64,000 nucleotides of DNA, taken from a virus. Positions 629-41,239 of the stretch are shown piece by piece. Where the stretch lies: the IMG/VR virus record IMGVR_UViG_3300009126_000404, positions 1-64,000 of that record; one strand, 5' to 3'. Within the stretch, counting starts at the first letter, position 1; the number at the start of each line of letters is the position of its first letter. The position numbers and the translations under genes were made by a program. Below the pieces are notes generated by a model that saw only the letters and a program-made list of their open reading frames with translations, did not search any database and had not been told where the DNA came from.

Positions 629-657
629 TTGACAGGTGACCTCTTTAAGCGTATACT
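629..657 (+). promoter_or_regulatory. Sigma70-type promoter for the proX/proW genes
   Basis: TTGACA lies at 629-634 and TATACT at 652-657, with a 17-base spacer. A hyphenated palindrome (AGGT-G-ACCT, 634-642) sits at the start of the spacer, and 5-bp arms CGCTT/AAGCG (626-630, 647-651) flank it. A strong Shine-Dalgarno (AAGGAGA) at 712-718 precedes the start at 724. Confidence 0.75.
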
Positions 658-723: not shown

Positions 724-1722
724 ATGAAACGTTTTATGACAATACTCGGCTTTGTGTTAATGTCAGCAATTGCAAGTGCTGGCTTATTTACTGCAAAAGC
801 GGATGATATAAAAATTGCCGAGTTAAACTGGCAATCAGGTTCAATGATAGCCAGCATTGACGCTTATATATTAAAACATGGCTACGGACACAATATTGAA
901 ATTGTTCCAGGCGGAATTGACGCAACAATACAATCAATGATGGCAACAGGCTCACCTAATATATTTGGCGAAGCATGGACTTCATTATTGGGCGATAGTG
1001 CTCACGAATATATTGCTAACGGAGATCTTTTACAAGTAAGAGATGAAGTTGTAACAGGAGCTGGAGAAGGTTGGTTTATACCAAGTTATATAGCTGAAGA
1101 ATATGGTCTTAATACTATTGAAGATGTATTAGCAAGACCTGACTTATTCCCACATCCAGAAGATCCTAGCAAGGGTGGAATTGTAATTTGTCCTGAAGGT
1201 TGGAGTTGTAAAAAACATAACGAAAATCTATTTAGAGCATATGACATGGAAGCCAAAGGCTGGAAAATTATTGATCCAGGATCAGGTACTGGTTTAAATG
1301 CTTATTGGGAAGGACAAGTTGTCAAAAACAAAAGTGCATTTGGGTACTATTGGACACCTACTGTATTAGTAGGACGTTTAAATCTAATGGCACTTCCTTC
1401 TACTGAAGGCTATGCAGGAGATGATAATTGGACAAATTGTATTTCTAGAGCAGTTGATGAATGTGCTAATCCACAAGCGTCATCTTGGCCTACATCTAAA
1501 ACAGGAACTATTGTTACGCCAGGACTTCATCCAGCCGTAATGGTTTATCTTTCTAAAAGAGGATTTGATGGAAGTATTATTACTTCAATGCTAGTTTGGT
1601 CAGATGATAATCAAGCAACAGCAGATGAAGCCGCAGTTGAATTTTTAAGACAACATCCAGAAATTTGGACAAAATGGGTAACACCTGAAGCCGCAACAAG
1701 AATTACTGCGTCTTTAAATTAA
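724..1722 (+). CDS. Glycine betaine/proline-type ABC substrate-binding protein (ProX/OpuAC family)
   Basis: This 332-residue protein has a Sec signal peptide (basic MKR, hydrophobic core, Ala-rich end near residue 25) and an OpuAC-like body: an early IAELNWQSG strand, aromatic residues typical of a quaternary-amine cage, and a GTGLNAYWEGQ hinge region. Family members bind glycine betaine, proline betaine or related compounds in the periplasm and hand them to a permease. The permease gene follows 11 bases later. It has its own sigma70-type promoter. No ATPase gene is nearby, so it may work with the host's ATPase. Confidence 0.88.
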   Translation: MKRFMTILGFVLMSAIASAGLFTAKADDIKIAELNWQSGSMIASIDAYILKHGYGHNIEIVPGGIDATIQSMMATGSPNIFGEAWTSLLGDSAHEYIANGDLLQVRDEVVTGAGEGWFIPSYIAEEYGLNTIEDVLARPDLFPHPEDPSKGGIVICPEGWSCKKHNENLFRAYDMEAKGWKIIDPGSGTGLNAYWEGQVVKNKSAFGYYWTPTVLVGRLNLMALPSTEGYAGDDNWTNCISRAVDECANPQASSWPTSKTGTIVTPGLHPAVMVYLSKRGFDGSIITSMLVWSDDNQATADEAAVEFLRQHPEIWTKWVTPEAATRITASLN

Positions 1723-1733
1723 GGTGATACATA

Positions 1734-2603
1734 TTGAACTTTCCATCTTTAGATAGAGAAACTATCACAGTTCTTAAGAAGTCTATTGACAGTACATTTA
1801 GAGAGTTTGCTAGTAATTGGGGAGAATGGTTTACAGAACTGCTCTCCCCAATTCATTGGCTACTTATTCATTTTGAGAAACTATTAATTGCTACGCCTTG
1901 GTATATATTTTTAGGTTTAACAAGTTTATTACTTTGGAAAGTAACACAAAACTGGAAACTAATATTAGGTTTCTTAATTAGTTTTAACTTAATTGGTTTA
2001 GTTGGTATGTGGGACGACACAATGCGAACACTAGCCATTGTAGTTGTTTCTACTCTTGTTTGTATAGTTGTCGGTATTCCTACAGGAATATTAATGGCAA
2101 AGAACAATTTAGCACAAAGAATTATCTTACCCATACTAGATTTAATGCAAACTATTCCAAGTTTTGTATATCTAATTCCTGTTATAATGTTATTTGGACT
2201 TGGCAAAGTTCCAGGCTTAATTGCTATAAGTGTCTTTGCTATACCTCCAGTGATTAGGTTTACAAATATTGGCATTCGAGAAATTGATAAAGATTTAACA
2301 GAAACAGCACACGCATTAGGATTAAGACCTATGCATATTTTAAGACTAATTGAATTACCACTGGCACGTAATGTTATACTTGGTGGAGTAAATCAAACAG
2401 TTATGATGGCTTTAGCAATGGTTGTTATTGCTAGTATGATTGGAGTACGAGGATTAGGCTCTCAAGTTATGAACTCAATAGGTAATGGATACTTAGGATT
2501 GGGTGTAATAAGTGGATTATCCATTGTAGCATTAGCAATCATTATAGATAGAGCAATACAATCACATAATAAACGCCATGATAAATGGAGAGATTATAAA
2601 TAG
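1734..2603 (+). CDS. ABC transporter permease, ProW/OpuAB family
   Basis: This 289-residue inner-membrane protein has about six hydrophobic segments and the binding-protein-dependent permease signature, including the EAA-like loop around TAHALGLRPMHILRLIELPLA, where the ATPase normally docks. ProW moves glycine betaine-type osmolytes through the inner membrane. The start is a TTG preceded by AAGGTG at 7 bases. It pairs with the upstream ProX-like gene. An intact EAA loop with no ATPase gene in the window suggests use of a host ProV (inference). Confidence 0.88.
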   Translation: MNFPSLDRETITVLKKSIDSTFREFASNWGEWFTELLSPIHWLLIHFEKLLIATPWYIFLGLTSLLLWKVTQNWKLILGFLISFNLIGLVGMWDDTMRTLAIVVVSTLVCIVVGIPTGILMAKNNLAQRIILPILDLMQTIPSFVYLIPVIMLFGLGKVPGLIAISVFAIPPVIRFTNIGIREIDKDLTETAHALGLRPMHILRLIELPLARNVILGGVNQTVMMALAMVVIASMIGVRGLGSQVMNSIGNGYLGLGVISGLSIVALAIIIDRAIQSHNKRHDKWRDYK

Positions 2604-2624
2604 TGTTAATAAAGGATTAGGTCA

Positions 2625-3491
2625 ATGAAACAAATAAAAGATTATACTGATGCCGAAATAATAGACGAAGCACAACGTATACTAACAGAAGGCTTTACCC
2701 TTCATTATGATCAGGAATTTACTCAAAGAGAATTAGTAGACTATTGTAAACGAATAGGCAATACTGATGATGATATGTTAGGGTATATGCAATTTAACCC
2801 TAAAGATAATCCAGATATATCAATTGTTTCTCCTGACCCAAGAATGTTGTTAGGACACAATGATTTAGAATGGCATTCAAATGGAACTGTACATCATGTA
2901 GTTGACGGTAAATGGGGACACAAAGAATGGTTAATTTGTTTATACTGTAAAGATTATTGCCCAGACACAGTTTTATCAGTAAGCAATAATCGTGATGCTT
3001 TTTTAGACTTACCAAAAGAAGAAAAGGATTGGTGGAGAGGTGTTGAAGTACAACTAAACAATAATGGTGGAAGTATATTAGGAAAGTATTATCATCAGAG
3101 CAAAGAAGCAATGACAGATGAAGATAGAGTTATTCCTATTGATGATGGATACAGAAAAGAATATAAAGAAATTCCAGAACACACCGGCGATGAGCGTATG
3201 CCTGTTGTTAATATTCATCCAGTTGGTGGGCAAGAATTTTTATATTGGCAACCACCTTTGATTACTAAAGCATGGTTTGATGGTGAACTTATAAATGACT
3301 TAAATGGATTACAACAAAAATTTGATAAGGTTATTAATAGAACCAAGTACATCAAAGACATTGTGTTTAGGCCCGGTGATATATTAATTATGGATCAATT
3401 TTATACACTACACAGACGTTCGCCAATAATGAATAAGAATAGAGAACTTTGGCGTGTTGCTATAGACTATACAAATTCTATAGACAAGTAG
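2625..3491 (+). CDS. TauD/TfdA-like Fe(II)/2-oxoglutarate oxygenase with altered metal triad (HxN)
   Basis: This 288-residue protein is a paralog of the next gene and has the TauD-type ending YTLHRRS...LWRVAIDYT, which carries the distal His and the 2-oxoglutarate-binding Arg. At the proximal metal site it reads EWHSNG, so the usual Asp of HxD is Asn. The paralog has HGD there. Family members hydroxylate or desaturate small substrates such as taurine or gamma-butyrobetaine. The Asn could weaken iron binding or change the reaction. It opens a run with an AMP ligase, a radical SAM enzyme, a nitroreductase and a methyltransferase. Confidence 0.75.
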   Translation: MKQIKDYTDAEIIDEAQRILTEGFTLHYDQEFTQRELVDYCKRIGNTDDDMLGYMQFNPKDNPDISIVSPDPRMLLGHNDLEWHSNGTVHHVVDGKWGHKEWLICLYCKDYCPDTVLSVSNNRDAFLDLPKEEKDWWRGVEVQLNNNGGSILGKYYHQSKEAMTDEDRVIPIDDGYRKEYKEIPEHTGDERMPVVNIHPVGGQEFLYWQPPLITKAWFDGELINDLNGLQQKFDKVINRTKYIKDIVFRPGDILIMDQFYTLHRRSPIMNKNRELWRVAIDYTNSIDK

Positions 3492-3501
3492 GAGAATTAA
3501 C

Positions 3502-4425
3502 ATGATGAAAAAAATAACAGACTATACAGATTTCGAATTAAGAGAAGCAGTTGACATACTGTTACGAAATGGCCATGTATTATTTCACGATCAATACTTA
3601 ACACAAGATGAATTAGTAGAGTTTTGTAGACGAATAGGCAATACTGATGATTCTAATCCATCTATGGGACACATGGAGTTTAACCCAAAAGATAATCCAG
3701 ATATTTCCCTAATCACAACACAACCAGTAGGAAAGTCACCACATGGAATGTTTGGCCCAACAGACTTAGTATATCACGGAGATGGTGGTATGTGTCATGT
3801 TGGTGAATTTAAAGAATTATTAACAGGATTATATTGTGTAGGGTCATGTCCTGATACTGTATTAAGTTTATTAAACACTAATAAAGCATTTAGTTATTTT
3901 ACAGAAGAAGAAAAAGAATATTGGCGTAATGTAGAAACACAATTAAATGGTCAAGAAAAAGGAATATATGGAACTTATGAAGAGATGAAAAGAGATGGAA
4001 GTATGAAAGCCATTGACGGTGTTCAAGAAGCCTATAAAACTCCAATATACCATTATGATGATGAAAGACAAAACGTAGTTAATGTACACCCATATACCGA
4101 TAAAGAATTTATGTTATGGCAACCTGCATTTATCTGCAAAGCGTGGTACAAAGGCGAACCAATTGACGTAGATGAAATACAAAAGAAGTTTCGGAAGGCA
4201 TTAGTTCAAGGAAAGAATATAACAGACTTTGTTCTTAGAGAAGGCGACTTCTTAATTTGTGATCAATACTATACACTACACAGACGTTCATGGGTTAATA
4301 GTGCTGAGAGAATGATATGGCGAACAGCATTTGATTATTCTACATTATTAGGACCTGATAGTGTGTATGATAGTAGCATTGAAGAACAAAAATACATTTC
4401 ACGTAAACGCAAGAACAAAAGTTAA
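3502..4425 (+). CDS. TauD/TfdA-like Fe(II)/2-oxoglutarate oxygenase
   Basis: This 307-residue protein keeps the whole facial triad: VYHGDG gives the proximal HxD, and YTLHRRSW...IWRTAFDYS gives the distal His and the cosubstrate Arg. It aligns along its length with the upstream paralog (shared DELVEFCRRIGNTDD, NPKDNPDIS and SCPDTVLS blocks), so the pair arose by tandem duplication. The enzyme should be cytoplasmic and use O2 and 2-oxoglutarate. Its substrate is unknown. It lies 10 bases after its paralog and 5 bases before the AMP ligase. Confidence 0.82.
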   Translation: MMKKITDYTDFELREAVDILLRNGHVLFHDQYLTQDELVEFCRRIGNTDDSNPSMGHMEFNPKDNPDISLITTQPVGKSPHGMFGPTDLVYHGDGGMCHVGEFKELLTGLYCVGSCPDTVLSLLNTNKAFSYFTEEEKEYWRNVETQLNGQEKGIYGTYEEMKRDGSMKAIDGVQEAYKTPIYHYDDERQNVVNVHPYTDKEFMLWQPAFICKAWYKGEPIDVDEIQKKFRKALVQGKNITDFVLREGDFLICDQYYTLHRRSWVNSAERMIWRTAFDYSTLLGPDSVYDSSIEEQKYISRKRKNKS

Positions 4426-4430
4426 ACATT

Positions 4431-5864
4431 ATGTTAAAACAAAAACAAAAACCATTAAGCGATGATCAGATATTTCTAAGTTCATCAACTGAACAGATTA
4501 CTTGGGGCGAACTACATGCAAATCTTGATGCTAAAGTAGAAAGATTAAAAGAGCATGGAATTGGACCACACGTTGTTTTTGTAGTAGCAGAAGAGCAAGT
4601 AACAATAGATGATTACTTATGGATACTTGCTAGTATTAAGAACGGTGGGTCAGCTACACAAGCAGATGGTAGACAATCTAAAATGGAATTAGATGGGTTA
4701 ATTGCAGGCTGTAAAGCAATATGTATTATACGAAGTAATGAGATAACCATGCTAACAGACGATTTGACACCCACAATCCTACATCCATTAGAAGTTTATA
4801 GAGGTATGACAAGTGGAACTACAGTTAAAGAATTCTTTGAAATGTATCCTTTCTTTTGGGATTATGAAGACCACGAAAACGCAATTGTAGATGGACAAAC
4901 ACTATTAGGTTGTACAGCACATGCTTCAACACAACATTTATTTGCAATAGCACCAGAGTTTGAATTTGCTCAACGTCCCTATATACTTTGCACACACGGA
5001 TTTACAGCAACATACAATCCATATAACTTATTAAGAATGTATTATATAGGTGGCGGATTACACTTCTTAAACTATGGTGATAATATTCCAGAACAAATAC
5101 AAAAAGCAAATCCCAATTGTTGTATCTCATATCCTAATGCTGTTAAAAGAATAGTTGATGCATGTCCAGATGATTTCAATTGGAATGGAATCAAATATTG
5201 GGAAATGTCAGGTGGGCATACTCCAGAATCAATTGTTAGAAGTATTGAGAAAAAGTTTAACTTTGTATGTATGCACAACATGATGGCAAGTACAGAAGCA
5301 GACTGTCATTCTAGTGCAAAATATAGACCCGGTGATCCAATAGAAAACTTTTATGGATTTGTACACGACCCTAAATTTTATAATGGCGAACTTAAATATG
5401 ATGATGAGGGTGTACTTTGGTATAGGTATGGAACACTTGATTGGCAAACAGATGGCGATAAGTTTGAGAATAGAAATGGTGCCTGGTTTTATACAGGCAG
5501 AGTGTTCGATGATGTTATTTTTATGAAAGGTGGTGTCAAGATTTATACAGGAATGGTTGAGGCTAAGGCACTTGAAACTCCTGGCGTTGAAAACGTTGCT
5601 AGTTGTGAGAAAGACGAACTTCATTACTTAATATATACAGGAGATGCATCAGCAAAGGATATTGCAAAAAGTTTTAAAGAAATGCAACCATCTAAAAGAC
5701 CACACAACATATATCATGTTACTGATGAACTATTCTTTGGACAATCAAGTGAAACACTAACTCCACAAAAACTACAAAAACATAAATTAGCAGAAATTGT
5801 TTTAAATGGGCCTGCAGATCAAAGACTAGAACATATTAATCTTAAAGATCACTCTCAAGTATAA
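4431..5864 (+). CDS. ANL-superfamily AMP-forming ligase (acyl-/amino-acid-activating type)
   Basis: This 477-residue protein has the core motifs of adenylate-forming enzymes: GMTSGTT (P-loop-like A3), MMASTEAD (A5), and a WFYTGRVFDDVIFMKGG block (A7/A8: hinge and ATP-ribose region) followed by the family-like IYTGMVEAKALETPGVENV. Such enzymes activate a carboxylate as an acyl-adenylate and pass it to CoA, a carrier or an amine. No carrier-protein gene is seen nearby. Its place between two oxygenases and a radical SAM enzyme suggests that it activates an acid in a small pathway (inference). Confidence 0.8.
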   Translation: MLKQKQKPLSDDQIFLSSSTEQITWGELHANLDAKVERLKEHGIGPHVVFVVAEEQVTIDDYLWILASIKNGGSATQADGRQSKMELDGLIAGCKAICIIRSNEITMLTDDLTPTILHPLEVYRGMTSGTTVKEFFEMYPFFWDYEDHENAIVDGQTLLGCTAHASTQHLFAIAPEFEFAQRPYILCTHGFTATYNPYNLLRMYYIGGGLHFLNYGDNIPEQIQKANPNCCISYPNAVKRIVDACPDDFNWNGIKYWEMSGGHTPESIVRSIEKKFNFVCMHNMMASTEADCHSSAKYRPGDPIENFYGFVHDPKFYNGELKYDDEGVLWYRYGTLDWQTDGDKFENRNGAWFYTGRVFDDVIFMKGGVKIYTGMVEAKALETPGVENVASCEKDELHYLIYTGDASAKDIAKSFKEMQPSKRPHNIYHVTDELFFGQSSETLTPQKLQKHKLAEIVLNGPADQRLEHINLKDHSQV

Positions 5865-5866
5865 TA

Positions 5867-6874
5867 ATGAATTGGCTAAAACAAATACACCATATGCAAA
5901 TTGATATTACAAGTTATTGTAACGCAAGGTGTGGTGCGTGTGCTAGAAACATAGCTGGAGGAAAAACACAGCCGTGGTTACAATTAAGTCACTTTGATAA
6001 ACATATTTGGTATCGTTTATTTACTGAAGATACTATTGATACAGAAATACTTAAATTAAAACTTAATGGAAATTGGGGAGACCCAGGTATGCATCCTGAT
6101 TTACCTGAATTAATTTCTGTGTTTGGTAAATGTAATCCAGAAGCATCTGTACAAATTTGTACTAATGGTGGAACACATAATGAAGAATGGTGGGGTAGTT
6201 TAGGCAATGCATTATCTAGAGATACAAAATATCATGCTGTTGATTTTGCTATTGATGGACTAGAAGACACACATTTAATATATAGGCGCTCAACAGATTA
6301 TAATAAAATATTAGCAAATGCAATATCTTTTGCTAAAGCAGGTGGAAAAAGTCGTTGGATAATGACATTGTTTGATTATAATATACATCAAATAGATGAA
6401 GCAATTGAGGTAGCAAGAAAGAATAACTTTACGTCAATTAAATTTAGATATAGTCATACAAAAAATGCATTAGTTGAAACACCAACAGAAGAATACAGGT
6501 TACATACTGATAAAGCAGATAAAGTTACATTGCCAGACACAGTATATTTTAATAATTCAGTAATGTTTTCTGAAAACTCAACAAAACATACAACTGATAG
6601 TAAATGCCCATGGTATAGAGATGAACGAATACAAATTGGGCCGTGGGGCAATGTGTGGCCATGTTGCTATATTGCAGATGTAATGGAAGGAATAACTGAG
6701 ATAAACCAACAAGAACAGTTAGAAAAAGAAATGCCTAATCAAGAATGGAACAATTTAACAAATCACTCATTAAATGACATACTTAGTCATAAATGGTTCA
6801 ATAGTACATTAAATAGTGCTGTAGAGCACGGTAAGTATGCTGTATGTATAAATAATTGTGAAATAACAACATGA
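5867..6874 (+). CDS. Radical SAM protein with C-terminal SPASM-like domain
   Basis: This 335-residue protein has the 4Fe-4S motif CNARCGAC at residues 18-25, the glycine-rich region NGNWGDPG, a DGLEDT segment, and a C-terminal SPASM-like set beginning CPWYRDE, then VWPCCY, then CINNC. Radical SAM enzymes cleave SAM to a 5'-deoxyadenosyl radical; SPASM domains hold extra clusters and are common in peptide- or protein-modifying enzymes. It is paralogous to the genes at 18339 and 37551. It follows the ligase by two bases and overlaps the nitroreductase by ATGA. Confidence 0.87.
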   Translation: MNWLKQIHHMQIDITSYCNARCGACARNIAGGKTQPWLQLSHFDKHIWYRLFTEDTIDTEILKLKLNGNWGDPGMHPDLPELISVFGKCNPEASVQICTNGGTHNEEWWGSLGNALSRDTKYHAVDFAIDGLEDTHLIYRRSTDYNKILANAISFAKAGGKSRWIMTLFDYNIHQIDEAIEVARKNNFTSIKFRYSHTKNALVETPTEEYRLHTDKADKVTLPDTVYFNNSVMFSENSTKHTTDSKCPWYRDERIQIGPWGNVWPCCYIADVMEGITEINQQEQLEKEMPNQEWNNLTNHSLNDILSHKWFNSTLNSAVEHGKYAVCINNCEITT

Positions 6875-7566
6875 ATGTAAATGACGCTATAAGAAAACGT
6901 AAATCAACACGTGCATTTTTAAATAAACAAGTGTATCCACATATTGTAATTAAAATACTAGAACAAGCAAAACGAGCACCAAGTGGCGATAATCATCAAC
7001 CTTGGGACGTTGTAGTACTTACTGGTAAAGCAAAAAACAACTTATGTATTAAGTTAGAAGAAGCATTTCGTTCAGGTAAACAACCTGTTATGGATTATGA
7101 ATACTATCCACAAGACAAAAAGTCTGAGAAAGATACTAAATGGTTTGGTAAGTATAAAGATAATAGAAAAGCATGTGGGATAGGGTTATACTCACAAATG
7201 GGTATTATTTCTAAAGGAATGCAAAAACAAAAAGACGACTTATATGCTAAAAACTACAGAGCTTTTGATGCACCCGTAATGCTATTATTCTTTATTGATA
7301 GAGAATTAGGGAAAGGTTCTTACGTAGACTATGGAATGTTTATACAATCTATTATGTTATTAGCAACAGAGAATGGACTAGCAACATGTTCACAAGGCTC
7401 GTTGGGTGAATATGCTGATATTATACGTGAAGAGTTGCCAAAGTACAAAGATAAGATAGTTTTATGTGGTATGAGTATGGGATATGAAGATCCATCAAAC
7501 CCAATTAATCAGTATAGAACTATGAGGCAAGACATAAACGAAATAGTAAAATATTATGACGAATAA
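6871..7566 (+). CDS. Nitroreductase-family flavoprotein
   Basis: This 231-residue protein starts with the nitroreductase signature RKRKSTRAF, followed by RAPSGDNHQPW, both part of the FMN site. Toward the C-terminus it has the typical GLATCSQGS segment and VLCGMSMGYEDP. Members reduce nitro groups, enones or other substrates with NAD(P)H; some oxidise azolines in peptide natural products. The substrate here is unknown. The gene overlaps both neighbours, which indicates co-translation with the radical SAM and methyltransferase genes. Confidence 0.9.
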   Translation: MNVNDAIRKRKSTRAFLNKQVYPHIVIKILEQAKRAPSGDNHQPWDVVVLTGKAKNNLCIKLEEAFRSGKQPVMDYEYYPQDKKSEKDTKWFGKYKDNRKACGIGLYSQMGIISKGMQKQKDDLYAKNYRAFDAPVMLLFFIDRELGKGSYVDYGMFIQSIMLLATENGLATCSQGSLGEYADIIREELPKYKDKIVLCGMSMGYEDPSNPINQYRTMRQDINEIVKYYDE

Positions 7567-8158
7567 AGAACAAAAATGGCTCGATGAAGTATATGATAAA
7601 AATAATAGCGAGTTATATGACGAATGGGATAACTATCATGAACAAGTCATAGAAGGATTAGGATGGAAATGTCATACAATAGCGGCTAAATGGATTGCTG
7701 ATAACTTTCCAGAAGGAACCGAAGTTGCAGACATTGGATGTGGTAACGGTCAAGTGGGTATTGGATTAGCAGAACATGATTATAAAATTGATGGATATGA
7801 CTTAAATCTCAAAATGCTTGAAAGATTTATAGCAACAAACTATAGATCAATTAGTAAACATGACATTACTGAAAAAGCATTACCAAAGAAGTATAAATGT
7901 ATAACAGCAATAGGTGTATTAACAAAAGGTCATGTTAATTCTATTGCGGCAGAACATTTAGCAAACAGTTTAACAAACGACGGACTACTATTTTGTAGTA
8001 TGTCTAAGCACGATGGCGATTGGTTTTATGATGGTGGATGGAATGCACAATCATATTTAGATGTTGTAAATATTACACCAGTACACAGTTTAACCACCCC
8101 AGAAGGCATAAAAACGTATCATAATATGGTTATTTGGCGAAAGAAAGCAAGATCTTAG
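7556..8158 (+). CDS. Class I SAM-dependent methyltransferase
   Basis: This 200-residue protein has motif I VADIGCGNGQVGIGLAE and an acidic post-I residue (DGYDLN) that would bind the SAM ribose. The rest fits a small Rossmann methyltransferase. The target (small molecule, peptide or other) cannot be told. The gene overlaps the nitroreductase by 11 bases and ends the run that began at 2625. A new promoter starts one base after its stop, so the operon ends here. Confidence 0.85.
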   Translation: MTNKEQKWLDEVYDKNNSELYDEWDNYHEQVIEGLGWKCHTIAAKWIADNFPEGTEVADIGCGNGQVGIGLAEHDYKIDGYDLNLKMLERFIATNYRSISKHDITEKALPKKYKCITAIGVLTKGHVNSIAAEHLANSLTNDGLLFCSMSKHDGDWFYDGGWNAQSYLDVVNITPVHSLTTPEGIKTYHNMVIWRKKARS

Positions 8159-8187
8159 TTGACATCTTGGTAATAATGTATTATAAT
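8159..8187 (+). promoter_or_regulatory. Sigma70-type promoter for the cold-shock gene group
   Basis: TTGACA at 8159-8164 and TATAAT at 8182-8187 are separated by 17 bases, and both hexamers match the consensus exactly. It drives the small membrane protein at 8231, the cold-shock gene and the two basic-protein genes. Confidence 0.85.
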
Positions 8188-8377: not shown

Positions 8378-8623
8378 ATGAATACAGGTAAAATAAAATG
8401 GTTCAATCCTACAAAAGGATATGGATTTATCGAAGTCGGCGGCGGTAGTAAGGATGTGTTTTTACATATTTCTGCATTACAAGAAGCTGGTATCGATACT
8501 ATTACAGAAGGTGATGAAGTATCTTTTGAAATAGGTGAAAATAGAGGTAAAAGTACCGCTATTAATGTTAAAAAAGTCGCGAGCGACAGTAATACGCCAG
8601 CGGGTAACCCGCATATTGGTTAA
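8378..8623 (+). CDS. Cold-shock domain protein (CspA family)
   Basis: This 81-residue protein has the cold-shock fold signatures [15 protein letters not shown] (RNP1-like) and DVFLHISAL (RNP2-like). CspA-type proteins bind single-stranded RNA or DNA and melt RNA structure. A short charged tail follows the roughly 66-residue domain. It sits in an operon with two Lys-rich proteins under a strong sigma70-type promoter, so it may be made early in infection and act on phage transcripts (inference). Confidence 0.95.
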
Positions 8624-9197: not shown

Positions 9198-10637
9198 ATG
9201 GACGCAATTCTGACGTTACTCGCAGGAACATTTTACGGATTAATTATAGGACTTATACCAAGTGCTGGAGCCACAACAGGTCTCGTAGCACTTTTTGGTT
9301 TCATAAGTTACTTTGGTTTCGACCCATACTTGGGCGTAATATTCTGTATGGCAGTAGTTGCCTCAAGCACAACGGGTGATACTTATGCAGGAATACTATT
9401 AGGTATCCCAGGTGCAAACTCAGCCGCGGCTACAATGGTCGATGGGTATCCTTTAGCACAACAAGGTAGAGCCACAGAGGCTTTAACGGCCGCAATCACA
9501 ACAAGCACAATCAATGGATTATTTTGGGGTACATTAACTTTTGCCCTATTACCTCAATATGTGAAACTTATTATGTATTTCGGCATCCCTGAACTATGGG
9601 CTTTCATCTTATTAAGTTTAGCCTGTGTAGGATTTGTCAGTAATAGGTTTTGGTTTAGAAGTATCATAGCAATTTGTGTGGGTATTTTTGTAGGATTAAT
9701 AGGCATAAACCCAGAAACAAACATAGACAGATTTACTTTTGGATGGGAATATTTAGAAGATGGCGTACAACTTATGCCTTTTGTCGCTGGACTATTTGCT
9801 TTTCCTGAAATAGTACAAGGTTGGCGAAGAGGCAACTCAATTGCAACAATAGGTAAAGAAACGCATACGCATCAGACTTGGGAAGGTATTAAAGCAGTTT
9901 GGAAATATAAATGGGATGCTTTACGTGGCGGAGCAATTGGAGCATTTGTAGGATTTTTACCTGGTCTTGGTGGTGCTATGGGAGATTGGATGAGTTACGG
10001 TGCTACAGTAGCAAGTCATCCTGAAGAAGAATTTGGTAAAGGTAACCTAAGAGGTGTTATAGGGCCAGAAGGTAGTAACAATGCCCAAAAGGCAACTAGT
10101 ATGATTCCAACAGTATTGTTTGGAATACCTGGAGCAAGTTTTGCCGCAGTACTACTAGCCTTGTTTATGTATTTGGGTTTCGAATTAGGAACACAAGAAT
10201 TAGCAAATGATATAAAGTTCTTTGACAGTTTAACATTTGGATTTATGTGGGCGACAGTAATTACTGGTGTAGTTTGTGTACTATTCAATAAGCAAATTGC
10301 AAAAATAACTTATGTTCCTTACATTTATTACTTTCCATTCTTAGTAGCATTTATTATATGGGCTTGTGTTCAATACACAGGTGGTTGGCAAGATTATGCT
10401 ATACTAGGTATTACTACTTGTTTAGGATTGTTTTGTAAAAAATACAAGTTTAGTAGACCTGCAATGTTAATGGCATTTATACTTGCTACAAAGATAGAAG
10501 CATTAACATTACAAATGACAACAATTTATTCAATAGATAAACTAATGACAAGACCGTTGTTCTTAGTGATAATGAGTTGTGTAATTATGTTGTTAGTATT
10601 CAGCATAGTTAAAAGAAGTAAACTAGAATATGCTTAA
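9198..10637 (+). CDS. Tripartite tricarboxylate transporter large membrane subunit, TctA family
   Basis: This 479-residue, many-times membrane-spanning protein matches TctA: an N-terminal GLIPSAGATTG loop, STTGDTYAGILLGIPG, and a later repeated FLPGLGGAMGDW...LFGIPGAS half. TctA forms the inner-membrane channel for carboxylate uptake with small subunit TctB and periplasmic receptor TctC. The length is near the family's usual 500. The receptor gene follows, but no TctB gene is visible. A late-type box precedes it. Confidence 0.92.
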   Translation: MDAILTLLAGTFYGLIIGLIPSAGATTGLVALFGFISYFGFDPYLGVIFCMAVVASSTTGDTYAGILLGIPGANSAAATMVDGYPLAQQGRATEALTAAITTSTINGLFWGTLTFALLPQYVKLIMYFGIPELWAFILLSLACVGFVSNRFWFRSIIAICVGIFVGLIGINPETNIDRFTFGWEYLEDGVQLMPFVAGLFAFPEIVQGWRRGNSIATIGKETHTHQTWEGIKAVWKYKWDALRGGAIGAFVGFLPGLGGAMGDWMSYGATVASHPEEEFGKGNLRGVIGPEGSNNAQKATSMIPTVLFGIPGASFAAVLLALFMYLGFELGTQELANDIKFFDSLTFGFMWATVITGVVCVLFNKQIAKITYVPYIYYFPFLVAFIIWACVQYTGGWQDYAILGITTCLGLFCKKYKFSRPAMLMAFILATKIEALTLQMTTIYSIDKLMTRPLFLVIMSCVIMLLVFSIVKRSKLEYA

Positions 10638-10642
10638 TTTAA

Positions 10643-10648
10643 TAAATA
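10643..10648 (+). promoter_or_regulatory. T4-like late promoter box (TAAATA) before tctC
   Basis: AATAAATA begins just after the tctA stop and 26 bases before the next ATG, with an AAGGAGA in between. Confidence 0.45.
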
Positions 10649-10673
10649 CATATACAATTCCAAGGAGACAAGA

Positions 10674-11807
10674 ATGAAGAAAATTCTAATGGTCCTAGTG
10701 TTATCACTAGGAATCGCAACATCAGCACTTGCTGAAACATTTACATTTGTTGTTCCACAGAAACCAGGTTCTGGTACTACTGTGTGGACAGAAATTGTAC
10801 TTAAAGAACTGGCTAGGTTTATGCCAGAACACACTCTAAAACTTAGAAACTTTCCAGGTGCTAGAGATATACCGGCAGTTAATGCCTTTCAAAACGAATT
10901 AAGATTTGACGATACTATTATTATGGTTTCACATGGTGGTAATGGTGTATCATTCTTACAAGAACAAGTTGATTACAACTATGCTGATTGGGAATCAATT
11001 GGTATGATGAACTTAAACATCATTGTTGGTAAAAGACTTGATGCAGATTTAGACAATATTATATTTGCATCTAATCCAGGTCGTGTTCCAGATGCAATGG
11101 CACTAGCTCTATTATTATGTGGACCACTAGATTCCATTGATGCATACACAACTTGTTTTAAATCAAAAGTTACTTTCGTTCCAGGTTTTAAAAAGGGCGG
11201 CGACAGACGTTTAGCATTTAAACGTGGTGAACTAACTGTTGACAGAGAAAATCCTGCGGCATATAAGAAACATATTGCTCCTAACGAAGAAGCAGAAATT
11301 TGGTTCCATCATGGAATTCTACAAGCAGATGGTACACACGCAGATGACCCTAACTATCCAGGTTTACAAATGGAAATTTTATATGAGCAAAAATGGGGAG
11401 AAGCACCATCAGGTCCAATGTATGATGCATATGTACTTGTTAAGTCATTCCGTGATGCTTTACAAAAAGCATTTTGGGTAAACGCTGGTAATCCAAATGC
11501 AGAGTTGTTACAAAAAGCATTGTTAGAAATGTCTAAAGACGAGCAGGCTATCAAAGCCATTCAAAAGAAAGTTGGCAATTATGAATGGGTTATTGGTGAA
11601 GAAGGTAATGCTCGAAGAGATACACTAATGACATTTGTTACAGAAGATGCATTACGTAATTTAGTTAAATTCTCAAATGAGGCGTTAAACATTCAAGCAG
11701 TTTATAAAGAAAGCATTTTAACTCCAGATGCAGTAGACGTTGTTGAAGAAGCTGAACAATCTAAAAGCATCAGAGGTTGGCTTAAAGACTTTTTTAACTG
11801 GCAATAA
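10674..11807 (+). CDS. TctC-like periplasmic carboxylate receptor
   Basis: This 377-residue protein has a clear Sec signal peptide ending in TSALAE and an early FVVPQKPGSGTTVW segment resembling the ligand-binding start of Bug/TctC receptors. The middle is longer than a typical TctC (about 320) and includes a GGDRRLAFKRGE loop. It should bind an organic acid in the periplasm and serve the TctA protein encoded just upstream. A terminator follows, so tctA and tctC form a late unit. Confidence 0.72.
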   Translation: MKKILMVLVLSLGIATSALAETFTFVVPQKPGSGTTVWTEIVLKELARFMPEHTLKLRNFPGARDIPAVNAFQNELRFDDTIIMVSHGGNGVSFLQEQVDYNYADWESIGMMNLNIIVGKRLDADLDNIIFASNPGRVPDAMALALLLCGPLDSIDAYTTCFKSKVTFVPGFKKGGDRRLAFKRGELTVDRENPAAYKKHIAPNEEAEIWFHHGILQADGTHADDPNYPGLQMEILYEQKWGEAPSGPMYDAYVLVKSFRDALQKAFWVNAGNPNAELLQKALLEMSKDEQAIKAIQKKVGNYEWVIGEEGNARRDTLMTFVTEDALRNLVKFSNEALNIQAVYKESILTPDAVDVVEEAEQSKSIRGWLKDFFNWQ

Positions 11808-17989: not shown

Positions 17990-18339
17990 TGGAACTATTA
18001 TTAACTAATATAATATATGTAGGCTTTAGATTATTAGTTACAGCACATATAGTAAAATTCTTTCATAAATATTTTCCATTTGGAATTGCAGTATTAATTG
18101 CCGCACAGGTTAGTTTTTTATATGACGGTGGAATATTTGCATACTTATTTCAAGCACAAGCATTGCCAGAAGCAATGGAAATACTACAAGCAAATATATT
18201 ATATACATTGCGAGTAGGAATAGCATGGTGGATTATTAAAATGCTATGGGATAAGCTAAATAATTATTACTTAGCAGTCTTTATTGGTGCTGAATTAACA
18301 TTTATAGTAGACTATTTTATATTTGATGGATTATATTAA
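17989..18339 (+). CDS. Small integral membrane protein
   Basis: This 116-residue protein has about three hydrophobic segments (LLLTNIIYVGFRLLV, FGIAVLIAAQVSFLY, AVFIGAELTFIVDYFIF) with few charges. The ATG overlaps the cupin stop as TGATG, and its own stop overlaps the radical SAM ATG as TAATG, so translation is coupled. No function is recognised. Confidence 0.7.
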   Translation: MELLLTNIIYVGFRLLVTAHIVKFFHKYFPFGIAVLIAAQVSFLYDGGIFAYLFQAQALPEAMEILQANILYTLRVGIAWWIIKMLWDKLNNYYLAVFIGAELTFIVDYFIFDGLY

Positions 18340-19433
18340 TGTACAATTATAAGCAAATAAACGAAGTTCATTTAGAAGTTACACAACGTTGTAATGCAAG
18401 TTGCCCTATGTGTGACCGTAATGAAAATGGTGGACCAGTTAATCAACATATCAGAGGAAATTTACAAGAATTAACACTTGATGATTGTATTGATATATTT
18501 CCAGCAGACTTTATAGCACAATTAAAAACAATGTATATGTGTGGTAACTTGGGCGACCCAATTAGTGCTAGAGATACATTAGAAATATTTCAATGGTTTA
18601 GAGATTGTAATCCTAATATGTGGTTAAGCATGAATACAAACGCAGGTGCTAGAGATGTAGAGTGGTGGGCTGATGTAGCAAAAGTAATAGGTAAAAATGG
18701 ATGTGTTATCTTTAGTGTAGATGGGCTTGAAGAAACTAATCATTTATATAGGCAAGGAGTTAAATGGGAGTACGTTGAACGTAACATGAAAGCATTTATT
18801 GCCGCTGGTGGCAGAGCTCGTTGGGACTATTTAATATTTGAACATAGTGAATGTGATGTTGAACGTGCTGAACAACTTGCTAAAGAATGGGGCGTTGAAC
18901 GTTTTATGAAAAAGAAAACAGGTCGCTTTGTTAGAGCAGACAGTACAGCTAAACAAACACACCAAGCAAAGAATCGTAAAGGTGCAGATATGCAAAAACT
19001 TGCTAAACCTAAAAAAGCAGAACATCAAAACCTTGCACTATTAAAACAAGAAGAGATTGAAAAAACGTATGGTAGTATGATGGACTATTATAATCAAGCA
19101 ACAATAACATGTAAAGTAGCAAAGAAAGACCTTAAAAGTATTTTTATAACAGCAGAAGGATTAGTTATGCCTTGTTGTTGGACAGCAGGTCGTATGTATA
19201 AATGGTGGCACACTGATCCTAAAGTGGAACAGATATGGGACTTTATAGACAGAGTAGGAGGCAAGAATGGAATTAGTGCTAAGATAAATACCATAAAGGG
19301 TGTCTTTGAAAGTGGCATTATGAAAGATATACAACGTAGCTGGACATTAAACAGCATTAAAGAAGGTAAATTGGGAGTTTGTGCTATGAAATGTGGCACT
19401 GAATTTGATCCATATGGGGAGCAGTTTAAATGA
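18339..19433 (+). CDS. Radical SAM protein with C-terminal SPASM-like domain
   Basis: This 364-residue protein has CNASCPMC at residues 18-25, then CGNLGDP, the VDGLEETNHLYR block shared with the genes at 5867 and 37551, and a C-terminal VMPCCWTAGR plus CAMKCG that would bind an extra cluster. A roughly 60-residue Lys-rich insertion (about residues 195-255) separates the barrel from the SPASM part and is absent from its paralogs. The substrate is unknown. It is the first of four adjacent radical SAM genes. Confidence 0.88.
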   Translation: MYNYKQINEVHLEVTQRCNASCPMCDRNENGGPVNQHIRGNLQELTLDDCIDIFPADFIAQLKTMYMCGNLGDPISARDTLEIFQWFRDCNPNMWLSMNTNAGARDVEWWADVAKVIGKNGCVIFSVDGLEETNHLYRQGVKWEYVERNMKAFIAAGGRARWDYLIFEHSECDVERAEQLAKEWGVERFMKKKTGRFVRADSTAKQTHQAKNRKGADMQKLAKPKKAEHQNLALLKQEEIEKTYGSMMDYYNQATITCKVAKKDLKSIFITAEGLVMPCCWTAGRMYKWWHTDPKVEQIWDFIDRVGGKNGISAKINTIKGVFESGIMKDIQRSWTLNSIKEGKLGVCAMKCGTEFDPYGEQFK

Positions 19434-20689
19434 CAATGAGTTTAGATGACTTACCAACAAAAAGTTTTTGTATATTACCTTGGGTAAGTGCCAATATTGG
19501 CTCTGAAGGTGATGTAGTTCCTTGTTGCTTATGGCATGGTAAGAGTGCAAGATTTGCCAAAGAACATAATGTGAAACGAGCAATGGTTAGCGATGGATTA
19601 ACAAATGCTAGAAACAGTGAATATTTTCAAAAAATCAGACAAATGATGCTCGAAGGTAAAAGACCAAGCGGTTGTAATGTATGTTATAAAAATGAAGATA
19701 GCAAATTCCACAAAAATCACAAAGAGGCATACGGAAAAGAACATCTTAGAACTATACATCATAAAAGATTCGCACCTTGGTATAGATTTCATACGTATAA
19801 AAACGAACCAATGGCTATGAAATGGTTGGAGACGGGATTAAGCAACCTATGTAATATGGCATGTGTAATGTGTAACGGCGGCTCTAGTAGCATAATATAT
19901 AGTGCATTTAATCCTGGAAAAAGTATTCCTAAAGGATTTATTCAATCAATAGATAGTATAGATGAAGACTTAGAAGGATTAAAGTTACTAACACTCTTAG
20001 GTGGCGAGCCTATGATAGAAAAGAAACATGATACGTTCTTAGAAACGATTATAGAACAAAATAAAAACCCCAATACTTTAGAAATAGACTACCACACAAA
20101 TGGAAGTATACTTCCTAGTCAACGTGTAATTGAGCAATGGAAGAAAGTAAAACAAGTTAGAATTGTTTTCAGTATGGATAGTGTTGGCAAACATGTAAAA
20201 ATACAACGCCCTGGTAACTATGAATGGCAAGATATAGAAGATACTGTAGACAAGTACGTACAATTAGCAGAAAGTAATGCTAATATTATATTTTCAGTTA
20301 ATGTATTACTTACAGCATTAAACATAGGGTGCATAACAGAAACATGTGATTATCTTTATAGCAAATTAAAGAATTCAAAAACTGGCTGGATGCACACAAA
20401 TAGAATTGCACCCGGAATGGAATGGCATAGATATATTGATTATAGAAACTTGGGTAAAAAAACTAAACAAAGAATTAAAGACAAATGGAAAAAATGGGAA
20501 GATAGTAATCCGCCAGTTTTAGCTGACAAAGATCATGCAATATCTAGACTGTATCAAATAGCAAAAGTATCTATAAACGAAGAGGGAGACATGGATGAAC
20601 CACTTACAAAAGAACTTATGCTAAAAAAACATCCTCAGGCTAAATTATGGAAATTATATAAACAAGACTTAAAGGAATTAGATATATGA
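19430..20689 (+). CDS. Radical SAM protein with N-terminal twitch-like domain
   Basis: This 419-residue protein begins with KSFCILPW, then VVPCC, then CNVC, an auxiliary-cluster-like set placed before the radical SAM motif CNMACVMC (residues 141-148). A GGEPM motif follows. This order, with the cluster domain first, is the N-twitch arrangement I associate with phage radical SAM families. Its closest relative in the window is the gene at 61051, nearly colinear from LDDLPTKS to the EPLTKELML ending. The substrate is unknown. Confidence 0.85.
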   Translation: MTMSLDDLPTKSFCILPWVSANIGSEGDVVPCCLWHGKSARFAKEHNVKRAMVSDGLTNARNSEYFQKIRQMMLEGKRPSGCNVCYKNEDSKFHKNHKEAYGKEHLRTIHHKRFAPWYRFHTYKNEPMAMKWLETGLSNLCNMACVMCNGGSSSIIYSAFNPGKSIPKGFIQSIDSIDEDLEGLKLLTLLGGEPMIEKKHDTFLETIIEQNKNPNTLEIDYHTNGSILPSQRVIEQWKKVKQVRIVFSMDSVGKHVKIQRPGNYEWQDIEDTVDKYVQLAESNANIIFSVNVLLTALNIGCITETCDYLYSKLKNSKTGWMHTNRIAPGMEWHRYIDYRNLGKKTKQRIKDKWKKWEDSNPPVLADKDHAISRLYQIAKVSINEEGDMDEPLTKELMLKKHPQAKLWKLYKQDLKELDI

Positions 20690-21009
20690 TTGAGCTGTTT
20701 CTTAGTGCAATTCCAAATGTACTTTCTGCTATGTTTGTTGGAAGTATAGCAGGCGGACTAGTACAGGTATGTGAAAATGATATACCTAAACTTAAGAATC
20801 TTAAACCCAAACTATCAAAAGTTATGATTGAAAGAGAAGTATCAGAAGACATTCGAACTGCTTTTTGGGATTCATATGATAATATCTATAATGGACCTAA
20901 ACTTCCATCAGCCTGCGAGGAGGCTTTACAAGCAGTAGGTACATCAAAACAAGAAGTTATAGATGAAATTAGTCCAGAAAAAAGCACACATGAACAAAGA
21001 TTTAGATAA
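20686..21009 (+). CDS. Small membrane-anchored hypothetical protein
   Basis: This 107-residue protein has one hydrophobic segment near residues 5-27 (FLSAIPNVLSAMFVGSIAGGL) and a soluble, charged remainder. It overlaps the upstream radical SAM gene by ATGA and the downstream one by 20 bases, so it is likely co-translated with both. No family is recognised. Confidence 0.65.
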   Translation: MIELFLSAIPNVLSAMFVGSIAGGLVQVCENDIPKLKNLKPKLSKVMIEREVSEDIRTAFWDSYDNIYNGPKLPSACEEALQAVGTSKQEVIDEISPEKSTHEQRFR

Positions 21010-22180
21010 TAAAAAACCAGCTTGTTATGTTCCATGGGTTACTCGATATGACTGGGGAAATGGAGATATAACTCCTTGCTGTGAGTTTGATCCTAATACG
21101 AAAATCAAAACAACAGAAAATATGTCATTAGAGGATAGCTTTAATCATCCCAAAATGAAAGCATTAAGAACACAATTATTAACTTGTGATAAAAATGATA
21201 TTGATGCCCTCCCGACTGGTTGCAACCAATGTAAAGTATTTGAAAAAGCAGGAATGAAGGACTCAATGAGGCTAGCCGTTACTGATGTAGTCGAAAGAGC
21301 TGAACAAAACTCATCATATAAATTTAACCCTGATGAATTTAAGTTGCTATGGTTAGATTATAGAGAGAGTAACCTTTGTAACTTTAGTTGCAAAATGTGT
21401 GGTGAGGATTTGAGCAGTACACACGCAAAGATACAAGGAAAATATGGCAAGACAGGTATAATAAAAAGTCCTCATAAATTACAAATGTACTTAGATAGAT
21501 TAGATGAAGTGAAATATGTTCAATTCTTAGGTGGTGAACCAGTATTAACTGATTCAATGTATATTATTCTAAAAGAAATAAAAAAGCGTAACCTACAGCA
21601 TCAGATTTGCATGAATATTACAACCAATGGTAGTTTACTGCATAAAGATAACGATAGTTTATTAGAATTATGTAAAGGATTTGATGCTGTACAAATTGCA
21701 ATAAGCATTGATTGTATGGGAGATCAACATAATTATTGGAGGCACAAAGGTACATGGAATATAGTATGGAAAAACACACGTGAAATAGAAAAATGGGTAC
21801 ACTCTCAAGACGGTGCAAATATGAAAATAAGAACTGCTATTGGTTGGCCAAATGCATATGCTGCCAGAAAGACATTTGATATATTTGCTGATAAGTTAGG
21901 CAATGGCAAAGTAATTCATGTATGGAATTTAGTTAATATTCCAAGAGGATTAAGTCTTACACAATTGCCTCAAGACAGATTAGATGATTTATCCGTTTGG
22001 TGGAAGGATTATCCAGATGTAGCAAAAATGTTTAAAAATACTATATCTAACCCTAATATAAGAGAATTAATGTGGGTAAAAAAAGATATATTTAAGAAAC
22101 ATGATGCATGGCATGGAAACAGTTTTGTAAAGGCCTTTCCTGAATTTGAAGATTTTTATAACAATATAGAAGATATGTAA
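20990..22180 (+). CDS. Radical SAM protein with N-terminal twitch-like domain
   Basis: I chose ATG 20990 because it gives MNKDLDNKKPACYVPW, matching the start of the following paralog. The N-terminal cysteines are CYVPW, TPCCEF and CNQC; the radical SAM motif CNFSCKMC starts at residue 130, followed by FLGGEPV. It is a tandem duplicate of the next gene, with identical blocks such as LQMYLDRLDEVK and YWRHKGTWNIVWKNT. The substrate is unknown. Confidence 0.86.
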   Translation: MNKDLDNKKPACYVPWVTRYDWGNGDITPCCEFDPNTKIKTTENMSLEDSFNHPKMKALRTQLLTCDKNDIDALPTGCNQCKVFEKAGMKDSMRLAVTDVVERAEQNSSYKFNPDEFKLLWLDYRESNLCNFSCKMCGEDLSSTHAKIQGKYGKTGIIKSPHKLQMYLDRLDEVKYVQFLGGEPVLTDSMYIILKEIKKRNLQHQICMNITTNGSLLHKDNDSLLELCKGFDAVQIAISIDCMGDQHNYWRHKGTWNIVWKNTREIEKWVHSQDGANMKIRTAIGWPNAYAARKTFDIFADKLGNGKVIHVWNLVNIPRGLSLTQLPQDRLDDLSVWWKDYPDVAKMFKNTISNPNIRELMWVKKDIFKKHDAWHGNSFVKAFPEFEDFYNNIEDM

Positions 22181-23343
22181 TGAATAATAAAAGACCAGCT
22201 TGTTATGCTCCATGGGTTACCACATATGAATGGTCTAATGGAGATATAACTCCTTGTTGTGAATGGGATAGAGGAGAAGATGTTGACCACATCATGCATT
22301 CAAAAAAGCATCTATCATTTGAAGATAGATTTAATCATTCTAACTCACAAGCACTGCGAAAGAAAATGATGGAAGGACCTATTACAAATATACCTGGGTG
22401 TACCCATTGTGTTAATAATGAAAGATTAGGAGCATTCTCACATAGGCAATATCTTGATAAGTTAGTAGAAGATAGACAACCAATAGATCTAAATAAATTT
22501 ATGTTAGTACATATGGATTATAGAGAAAGTAATCTGTGTAATTTTAGTTGTAAAATGTGTGGACACGATTTAAGTAGCACACATGCTGTAATAAGAAATT
22601 GGATTGATGGTGATAACAAACAATTTCCAAAAGATGGAGTAAGAAAAAATCAACATCATTTACAAATGTATTTAGATAGATTAGATGAAGTTAAAATAAT
22701 ACATTTCTTAGGTGGCGAGCCTATGTTAATGGACTCAATGTATATCATTTTAGAAGAAATAAAAAAACGCGATATAGGAAAAAATATAAATGTACGTATT
22801 ACAACTAACGGTAGTTTATTACATAGAGAAAAAGATAATCTATTTGAATATTTAGAAGGAATAAAGTACAAAGCATTTTTTATAAGTATAGAGGCTATAG
22901 GCGATCAACATAACTATTGGCGACATAAAGGCACATGGAATATTGTATGGAAAAATACTCTTGAGATAAACAAATATGTAAAAGAGAATAAACGTAATAC
23001 AGGAATAGGAATTAGAACTGTATTATCATGGCCAACTGCATATGCGGCAAAAAAAGCATTTGATTTAATGAAAGACAATGGTATAGATCACGGTTATACC
23101 TTTATCATGGATCCAAAAGGATTAAGAATATCACAGTTACCACAGCATCACCTTGATGCTTTAGTTGAACATTGGAAAGAATATCCAGAAATACAGGATG
23201 CATTCTTAAATACTAAATCAAGAATTAATTGGGCAGAACTTAGCGAACAAAAAAAGACAATGATGCAACATGATGCATGGCATAAAAATAGTTTCGTAGA
23301 TGCATTTCCTGAATTTGAAGAGTTTTATAACAAGATCCCTTAA
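22180..23343 (+). CDS. Radical SAM protein with N-terminal twitch-like domain
   Basis: This 387-residue protein shares its whole layout with the gene before it: CYAPW, TPCCEW and CTHC, then CNFSCKMC from residue 120, then GGEPM. Both end with the same HDAWHKNSFVDAFPEFEEFYN-like segment. The start overlaps the previous stop as TAATG. The divergence between the copies suggests related but distinct substrates (inference). The operon ends here; a promoter follows. Confidence 0.86.
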   Translation: MNNKRPACYAPWVTTYEWSNGDITPCCEWDRGEDVDHIMHSKKHLSFEDRFNHSNSQALRKKMMEGPITNIPGCTHCVNNERLGAFSHRQYLDKLVEDRQPIDLNKFMLVHMDYRESNLCNFSCKMCGHDLSSTHAVIRNWIDGDNKQFPKDGVRKNQHHLQMYLDRLDEVKIIHFLGGEPMLMDSMYIILEEIKKRDIGKNINVRITTNGSLLHREKDNLFEYLEGIKYKAFFISIEAIGDQHNYWRHKGTWNIVWKNTLEINKYVKENKRNTGIGIRTVLSWPTAYAAKKAFDLMKDNGIDHGYTFIMDPKGLRISQLPQHHLDALVEHWKEYPEIQDAFLNTKSRINWAELSEQKKTMMQHDAWHKNSFVDAFPEFEEFYNKIP

Positions 23344-41037: not shown

Positions 41038-41239
41038 TATATACAGTGTTTTTAATGTACATACAAGAAAAGTTATCGCAGAAGGGTTTGATAAAAAAGC
41101 AGATGCTAAAGCCAAACGTGATGAACTTTGTAAAGACTCACATGACAAATGGGCTAAGAAAGTTAAAGATGATAAGGATTTAAGTAAACCATTTCCTTAT
41201 ATCGTAGTAAAAGGAACGGAACACCCAAGAGTACTATGA
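41030..41239 (+). CDS. Hypothetical protein, 69 residues
   Basis: A small alpha/beta protein, beginning MANIYSVFNVHTRKVIAEGF with a Lys-rich helix after it. It overlaps metK by ATGA. It is not recognised. Confidence 0.65.
   Translation: MANIYSVFNVHTRKVIAEGFDKKADAKAKRDELCKDSHDKWAKKVKDDKDLSKPFPYIVVKGTEHPRVL

Follow-up and report, generated by a model that had tools for sequence, protein, structure and literature searches.

A phage operon that joins a DmpX-like importer to oxidising and acid-activating enzymes: possible handling of DMSP or a close zwitterion

The bacterial Dmd route (DmdA-B-C) handles DMSP by demethylation, CoA ligation and a flavin redox step. Import in SAR11 and roseobacters is served by DmpXWV, and the paper on its binding protein, which names structure 7YLE, treats the DMSP-bound form of RnDmpX, in which Tyr200 contributes hydrogen bonds to recognition (PMC10030565). 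In DddP, a DMSP lyase of the M24 family, the metal ligands are D295, D297, D307, H371, E406 and E421, with Y366 and D377 proposed as catalytic (PMC4108388). Among Fe(II)/2-oxoglutarate (2OG) oxygenases, TauD and ScoE each hold the acid group of the substrate with a second arginine, and ScoE lacks the first, 2OG-binding arginine of TauD, relying on H299/R157 instead (PMC7949033). As for viruses, host dmdABC rises in one pelagiphage infection (PMC12753301), and the open-licence papers searched gave no account of DMSP import by viruses or of DMSP-directed viral enzymes. Here we describe a phage metabolic operon for which our preferred reading, given somewhat less than an even chance, is the import, oxidation and activation of DMSP or of an onium acid that is likewise zwitterionic and close to it.

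The DNA considered here, referred to as the window, is a stretch of 64,000 nucleotides (positions 1-64000 of IMG/VR virus record IMGVR_UViG_3300009126_000404, the full record being 183,842 bases). We judge the type of phage from its relatives and from clamp-loader-like genes picked out by eye; a Gp23 capsid search was uninformative. An initial annotation had drawn attention to six genes at 2625-8158 on the + strand, and all six open reading frames are present, each with the family claimed for it when compared with Pfam: TauD1, an Fe(II)/2OG oxygenase-like protein (2625..3491; TauD, 6.7e-13); its paralogue TauD2 (3502..4425; TauD, 1.7e-14); a divergent adenylating enzyme of the ANL superfamily (4431..5864); a radical SAM/SPASM enzyme (5867..6874; Radical_SAM, 2.7e-8, with weak SPASM); an NfnB-like enzyme of the FMN nitroreductase family (6871..7566; Nitroreductase, 4.9e-23); and a SAM-dependent methyltransferase (7556..8158; Methyltransf_23, 2.1e-8). 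Their tight packing was borne out, with junctions of 10, 5, 2, -4 and -11 bases, as was the promoter placed at the end of the cluster, a perfect sigma70 TTGACA-17-TATAAT (12/12) at 8159..8187 (+), 1 base past the stop at 8158, which marks the end of the operon and serves a next unit with a cold-shock protein (8378-8623). The importer that had been placed just upstream is indeed there, at 724-2603, but it probably belongs within the operon itself, the likely operon promoter (TTGACA-17-TATACT, an 11/12 match at 629..657, +) preceding the importer genes. In a close relative, L005, both equivalent promoter sites are perfect (12/12, at 6248 and 12694). Promoter-like matches overall were no commoner than chance (42 found against 43.7 expected), so that we put weight on none but the 12/12 and 11/12 sites. 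On the strength of these two sites and their L005 equivalents we take the transcription unit as probably 724-8158, with the order X-W-T1-T2-ANL-radical SAM-NTR-MT, where X is the binding protein, W the permease, T1 and T2 are TauD1 and TauD2, NTR is the nitroreductase and MT the methyltransferase; co-transcription of the block is likewise probable.

The importer consists of a substrate-binding protein of the DmpX (DMSP-binding) type (724..1722, +; OpuAC, 1.5e-37) and an ABC permease of the DmpW type (1734..2603, +; BPD_transp_1, 3.7e-26). A profile built from nine phage binding proteins matched RnDmpX (7yle) with E=2.3e-57, as compared to 1.4e-5 for 4xz6 and 8.4e-5 for ProX (1r9l), and by these values the phage protein is nearer in sequence to DmpX than to TmoX or ProX. 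The simple betaine importer that had been suggested therefore gives way to a DmpX-like assignment: an importer of onium zwitterions is supported, but the profile fits the DMSP binder far better than the betaine or TMAO binders. When the nine proteins are aligned with the RnDmpX pocket, six of eight DMSP-pocket residues are kept, W35, W84, E113, W152, Y200 and W202 being invariant in 9/9, so that the Trp cage and Tyr200 are both preserved. Against a DMSP ligand, the carboxylate contact Thr64 is Ile in 8/9, and the position of Ala153 is occupied by Ser, Ala or Thr; the window's own protein has Ile and Ser at these two positions, and both contacts (Thr, Ala) are retained only in L014. With Thr64 mostly Ile and Ala153 mostly Ser or Thr, the ligand may differ from DMSP, and the phage binding protein is, on its sequence, DmpX-like but short of a proven DmpX. 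Bacterial relatives drawn from a single class, around an Alphaproteobacteria genome, share no more than 38-40% identity with the phage binding proteins, and the permease is 51-54% identical to permeases adjoining bacterial DmpX-like genes in that class. A profile search of the 183.8-kb contig found no ABC ATPase partner above cut-off, and the ATPase for the importer would come from the host. The closest bacterial permease lies in a 1.24-Mb genome with a local GC of 31%, where X-W also stands without an adjoining ATPase gene (L207), as in the phage; on size and GC this bacterium could, at a guess, be SAR11-like. No TauD/ANL/NTR/MT block was seen beside the bacterial DmpX-like genes when these were surveyed by the order of open reading frames and N-terminal sequences.

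The two oxygenases differ at the metal site. TauD2 carries HGD or HHD, which satisfies the 2-His-1-carboxylate triad; in the window it is a standard His-x-Asp. TauD1 of the window has His-Ser-Asn at the metal-ligand position, and across lineages the motif is HSN or HAN in eight of nine and HGD in L018, a column confirmed by alignment to 5vn6 and 6d3h. Distant phage TauD homologues, including that of the cultured pelagiphage Mosig, have HSN or HQN, and the motif Asn always precedes Gly in these His-x-Asn phage oxygenases. Asn-Gly is a motif prone to deamidation, so that conversion of the Asn to Asp is possible; from the sequence we see this conversion, or else a 2-His-1-Asn site, as a possibility. 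The His-x-Asn oxygenases offer a separate test of the iron ligands that Fe/2OG enzymes tolerate. Two C-terminal arginines, R273 and R277, are invariant in 14 TauD sequences and fall, in the alignment, on the two paired arginines of PIsnB (7tcl), and fold comparison (TM about 0.6, from a model of pLDDT 71) is led by SfaA, ScoE, Rv0097, MmaE and PlaO1. These features place the phage TauDs among acid-binding TauD-like oxygenases while leaving their substrate unfixed. DMSP and taurine are alike in being two-carbon zwitterions, and this likeness fits a DMSP substrate but proves nothing.

Since ScoE-type enzymes are the best TauD fold matches, the oxygenases might be taken for ScoE-like oxidase/decarboxylases that act with an acyl-AMP ligase in isonitrile-type biosynthesis, the more so as the ANL enzyme finds its best, though weak, fold match in FadD10, which serves as ligase in the isonitrile cluster of mycobacteria. 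That match is unusable, however, the ANL model being poor (pLDDT 52, TM about 0.24), and we have set aside the model and its Foldseek matches as evidence. Moreover the phage enzymes keep both R273 and R277, whereas ScoE does without the 2OG-binding arginine and uses H299/R157 (PMC7949033), and at the offset of H299 the phage TauDs have Pro, Trp or, in L018, His. Within 724-8158 no ACP, thioesterase or NRPS is annotated and there is no gene of NRPS size. The arginines and the residues at the H299 offset disfavour the isonitrile route, which we regard as very improbable.

For the ANL enzyme, the AMP-binding match in the window (PF00501, 1.7e-6) falls just under the curated cut-off, but PF00501 matches all 11 ANL orthologues, the best at 7.9e-9. 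The window protein has an intact TSGTT P-loop and an A10-type lysine, and invariant in the 11 sequences are the P-loop T127-T131, the STE motif S287-E289, the GRxxD hinge (G356-R357/D360) and the A10 lysine K447. The sequence is too divergent for its substrate to be named, which counts against the DMSP reading.

The radical SAM gene has a different history from its neighbours. At the ANL/NTR junction it occurs only in the window's virus and in 100%-identical copies (L002-L004), and it is missing from all orthologous blocks examined in relatives. In those relatives an ATGA overlap joins the ligase gene to the nitroreductase gene, within the sequence AAGTATGAATGT. In the window this junction is split, its left half, CTCAAGTAT, standing before the radical SAM gene and its right half, ATGAATGT, after it. 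Radical SAM domains number 25 in this phage, and a paralogue with 40% identity lies at 66125-67225. The split junction, the absence in relatives, the abundance of such domains and the paralogue indicate that the gene was most likely inserted here out of the phage's existing repertoire. SPASM enzymes often act on peptides, and the presence of one in the operon might suggest a RiPP-like cluster for peptide modification built around it, but a gene absent from every orthologous block, inserted cleanly at the ANL/NTR overlap and one of 25 such domains, was rejected as the core enzyme, and an unsystematic look at short open reading frames in the block noticed no precursor peptide. This reading is accordingly exceedingly improbable. 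The cluster had been presented as one of six genes; five are conserved together, and the radical SAM gene falls outside the conserved set.

Related phages do carry such a block. A viral search anchored on the ligase, which is thus present in every locus by construction, gave 23 loci; we sort these into about ten lineages from their identity and the order of their genes, and the block, TauD(1-2)-ligase-nitroreductase-methyltransferase, is syntenic in these marine phage contigs at 45-89% protein identity, with some losses. L005 and L010-L012 have X-W-T1-T2-ANL-NTR-MT, and in L009 the L005 block is preceded by X-W at a distance of about 0.8 kb on the one contig (L165). X-W follows T1-T2-ANL-NTR-MT in L006 and ANL-NTR-MT in L007, where TauD is absent from a 62-kb contig. 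A single TauD is found in L014 and L022 (X-W-T1-ANL-NTR-MT), in L013 and L015 (T1-ANL-NTR-MT), in L016 (X-W-ANL-DddP-like-T1) and in L018-L021 (ANL-T1-MT); L017 and L023 resemble this last group but have TauD as a remnant. The contigs of the relatives are fragments, so gene absences are local, and the losses of TauD (missing in L007, a remnant in L017) and of NTR (missing in L016 and L018) weigh against the DMSP reading. Searches anchored on the other genes mostly returned to the block: 15/15 viral matches for the nitroreductase; 20/21 for the methyltransferase, the exception being a 33% partial match and all matches of at least 45% lying inside; and 20/24 for TauD, the other four (34-35%) lying in different oxygenase-rich blocks. 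Among annotated phage records the ANL enzyme had no match and TauD matched only in Mosig. All genes tested are under purifying selection, with pN/pS of 0.14-0.61 and synonymous sites near saturation in the wider pairs, and together with the synteny this argues that the block is not a chance run. Only the radical SAM gene is found apart from the others in relatives; the remaining five co-occur, save for the losses noted.

The L016 variant also bears on the substrate. Its operon reads DmpX-DmpW-ANL-406aa-TauD1, the slot after ANL being occupied by a 406-aa protein of the M24 family whose best NCBIfam match is DddP (9e-83; next family 1.2e-18), although at 278.5 of 600 bits it scores under the equivalog cut-off. 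Its best PDB matches (8e-70 to 4e-65, with prolidase at 2e-17) are 4rzy, 4s01, 4s00 and 4b28, which we take to be DddP entries deposited as 'Peptidase M24', and in the alignment to these matches all eight DddP residues, the six metal ligands, Tyr366 and Asp377, are kept. By profile and alignment the protein is closest to the DMSP lyase DddP. It is a single case, found in one 27.8-kb contig only in the viral scan, which limits what it lends to the DMSP reading.

The importer adjoins or neighbours the block in 8/10 phage lineages, in both orders and in several contexts, with junctions down to -4 bases. Against the DMSP reading, importers without the enzymes occur in three lineages (L162, L163/L164 and L166) and enzymes without an importer nearby in two (L013 and L018). 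These cases would suit importer and enzymes that are functionally separate, the one bringing osmolytes or sulfur to the host and the block having no more than a promoter in common with it and acting on, say, lipid, surface or nucleic-acid precursors, and so would the more distant TauD paralogues that sit in other oxygenase-rich blocks, by tail-fibre genes in Mosig and in L133. The frequent and tight linkage speaks against such a separation, as does the DddP-like gene within the L016 variant, and we consider it rather unlikely. The same gp46-like, importer and o8641 neighbours recur in L166, L016 and L014; the importer stands alone in the first of these, and in the other two enzymes lie between permease and o8641. 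This same-site series suggests that the importer is useful alone too and that the enzymes tend to join behind or beside it, in both orders.

The initial annotation had called the cluster biosynthetic-like and proposed comparison with bacterial biosynthetic clusters. None of this gene order was found in bacteria: profile searches in two bacterial classes, of 385 genomes in one and 369 in the other, run without a positive control, gave no full-length relative of the ligase, the ligase profile making four weak partial matches only, all among the 385 genomes of the first class; a pattern scan of bacterial genome contigs, also without a positive control, found no relative of the ligase; and the TauD profile made one weak partial match in bacterial genomes. 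A bacterial origin of the block was rejected on these searches. Oxygenases in company with an ANL enzyme, a flavin enzyme and a methyltransferase, with natural-product enzymes heading the TauD fold matches, would be expected of a small specialised-metabolite cluster for a signalling, metal-binding or growth-inhibiting compound, the importer supplying a precursor. Yet no carrier protein, thioesterase, NRPS/PKS domain or exporter was recognised in the block, the bacterial counterpart is missing from the searches above, and the DddP-like gene of L016 points to catabolism; such a cluster is unlikely, if worth keeping in view. What survives of the biosynthetic description is a coherent, probably co-transcribed metabolic block, for which catabolism is no less likely than biosynthesis.

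Under the DMSP reading, whose steps are drawn from knowledge of the families, the substrate would be bound in the periplasm by the DmpX-like protein and imported through the DmpW-like permease, a host ATPase driving the transport. One or two TauD-type oxygenases would then oxidise the S-methyl or the carbon next to the carboxylate, the second conserved arginine holding the acid group of the substrate as in TauD and ScoE; the ANL enzyme would convert the free carboxylate to an adenylate and probably then a thioester; the acyl group thus activated would be oxidised or reduced by the flavin enzyme; and the methyltransferase would move a methyl group. A phage whose demand for SAM and Fe-S clusters is high could gain reduced sulfur, methyl groups or carbon in this way; such a demand is plausible because the same contig encodes a SAM synthetase (41236-42333), NifS/IscS-, IscU-, IscA- and Nfu-type proteins and the 25 radical SAM domains. 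The host may be SAR11-like. Among the families recognised in the operon of the window itself there is none of the Dmd or Ddd genes, and this counts against the reading. The substrate class, DMSP or a close zwitterion, is moderately supported; we infer the identity of the substrate, the chemistry, the product and the host. It is doubtful, though conceivable, that the operon amounts to a self-contained viral DMSP route with enzymes unrelated to Ddd/Dmd and a 2-His-1-Asn TauD, from which the phage gains reduced sulfur or methyl groups. Several lineages of marine phages may feed on or remodel DMSP during infection; if so, the phages themselves would steer the flux of DMSP through the cells they infect, and defined proteins would be at hand with which to test what becomes of DMSP in virocells.

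Compared with the described systems, then, the phage set shares with DmpXWV the binding-protein and permease families, the X-W order and six of eight pocket residues, but DmpV is missing, Thr64 is replaced by Ile in 8/9 and the importer is joined to enzymes in an operon. With the TauD/ScoE-type oxygenases it shares the fold, the distal His and, as in TauD, two invariant C-terminal arginines, whereas TauD1 and its relatives have His-x-Asn in place of His-x-Asp and only about 15% identity to solved structures. In the cultured SAR11 phage Mosig (EXVC030M) a TauD 31% identical to that of the window also has HSN and is followed by a methylase gene, but it keeps company with other oxygenases, a desaturase and an aminotransferase, adjoins tail-fibre genes and has no ANL annotated in the 18.8-kb stretch. 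DddP is by far the best family for the L016 protein, with metal and catalytic residues in common, although that protein has about 406 residues as against 447, scores below the cut-off and has no counterpart in the window's own operon. Finally, the phage block would parallel the logic of the Dmd route, with a C1 or oxidative step, acid activation by a ligase and flavin redox, but with enzymes that are probably unrelated, and the likeness serves as a working analogy only.

A single phage contig, the whole 183.8-kb record from which the window is drawn, encodes 25 radical SAM domains (examples lie at window 18339-23343, at window 59640-64000 and in L031, a further stretch at contig 64001-84000), many of which are held in tandem arrays, and it also encodes a SAM synthetase and Fe-S assembly genes of the IscS/IscU/IscA/Nfu type. 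A flavoenzyme of the tryptophan halogenase family, fused to a WYL_2 domain, is found at window 44007-45452 (Pfam 4.7e-60 for the halogenase family).

Near the block, a TctA family transporter and a probable binding protein occupy window 9198-11807 with no TctB-like gene between them, and several relatives also carry a TctA/TctC pair close to the block. Elsewhere on the contig, at L032:17768-19251 (contig 101768-103251), a 236-aa protein that matches just part of an AMP-binding enzyme neighbors a ~260-aa protein without a Pfam match; pairs of similar type occur in related marine phages (L007, L009, L013 and L018).

In a set of TauD-family phage oxygenases, made up of TauD1 (window 2625-3491) and members from viral loci L013, L014, L016, L131-L133 and L158 (the cultured pelagiphage Mosig), a conserved His-x-Asn-Gly replaces the iron-ligand motif His-x-Asp. 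The variant operon of phage contig L016 includes a DddP-like gene of the DMSP lyase family (L016:5353-6573). Further marine phage blocks, in L131, L132, L133, L134 and L158, contain many oxygenase, desaturase, flavin reductase and methyltransferase genes, and tail-fiber genes adjoin the oxygenase-rich block in L133 and Mosig.
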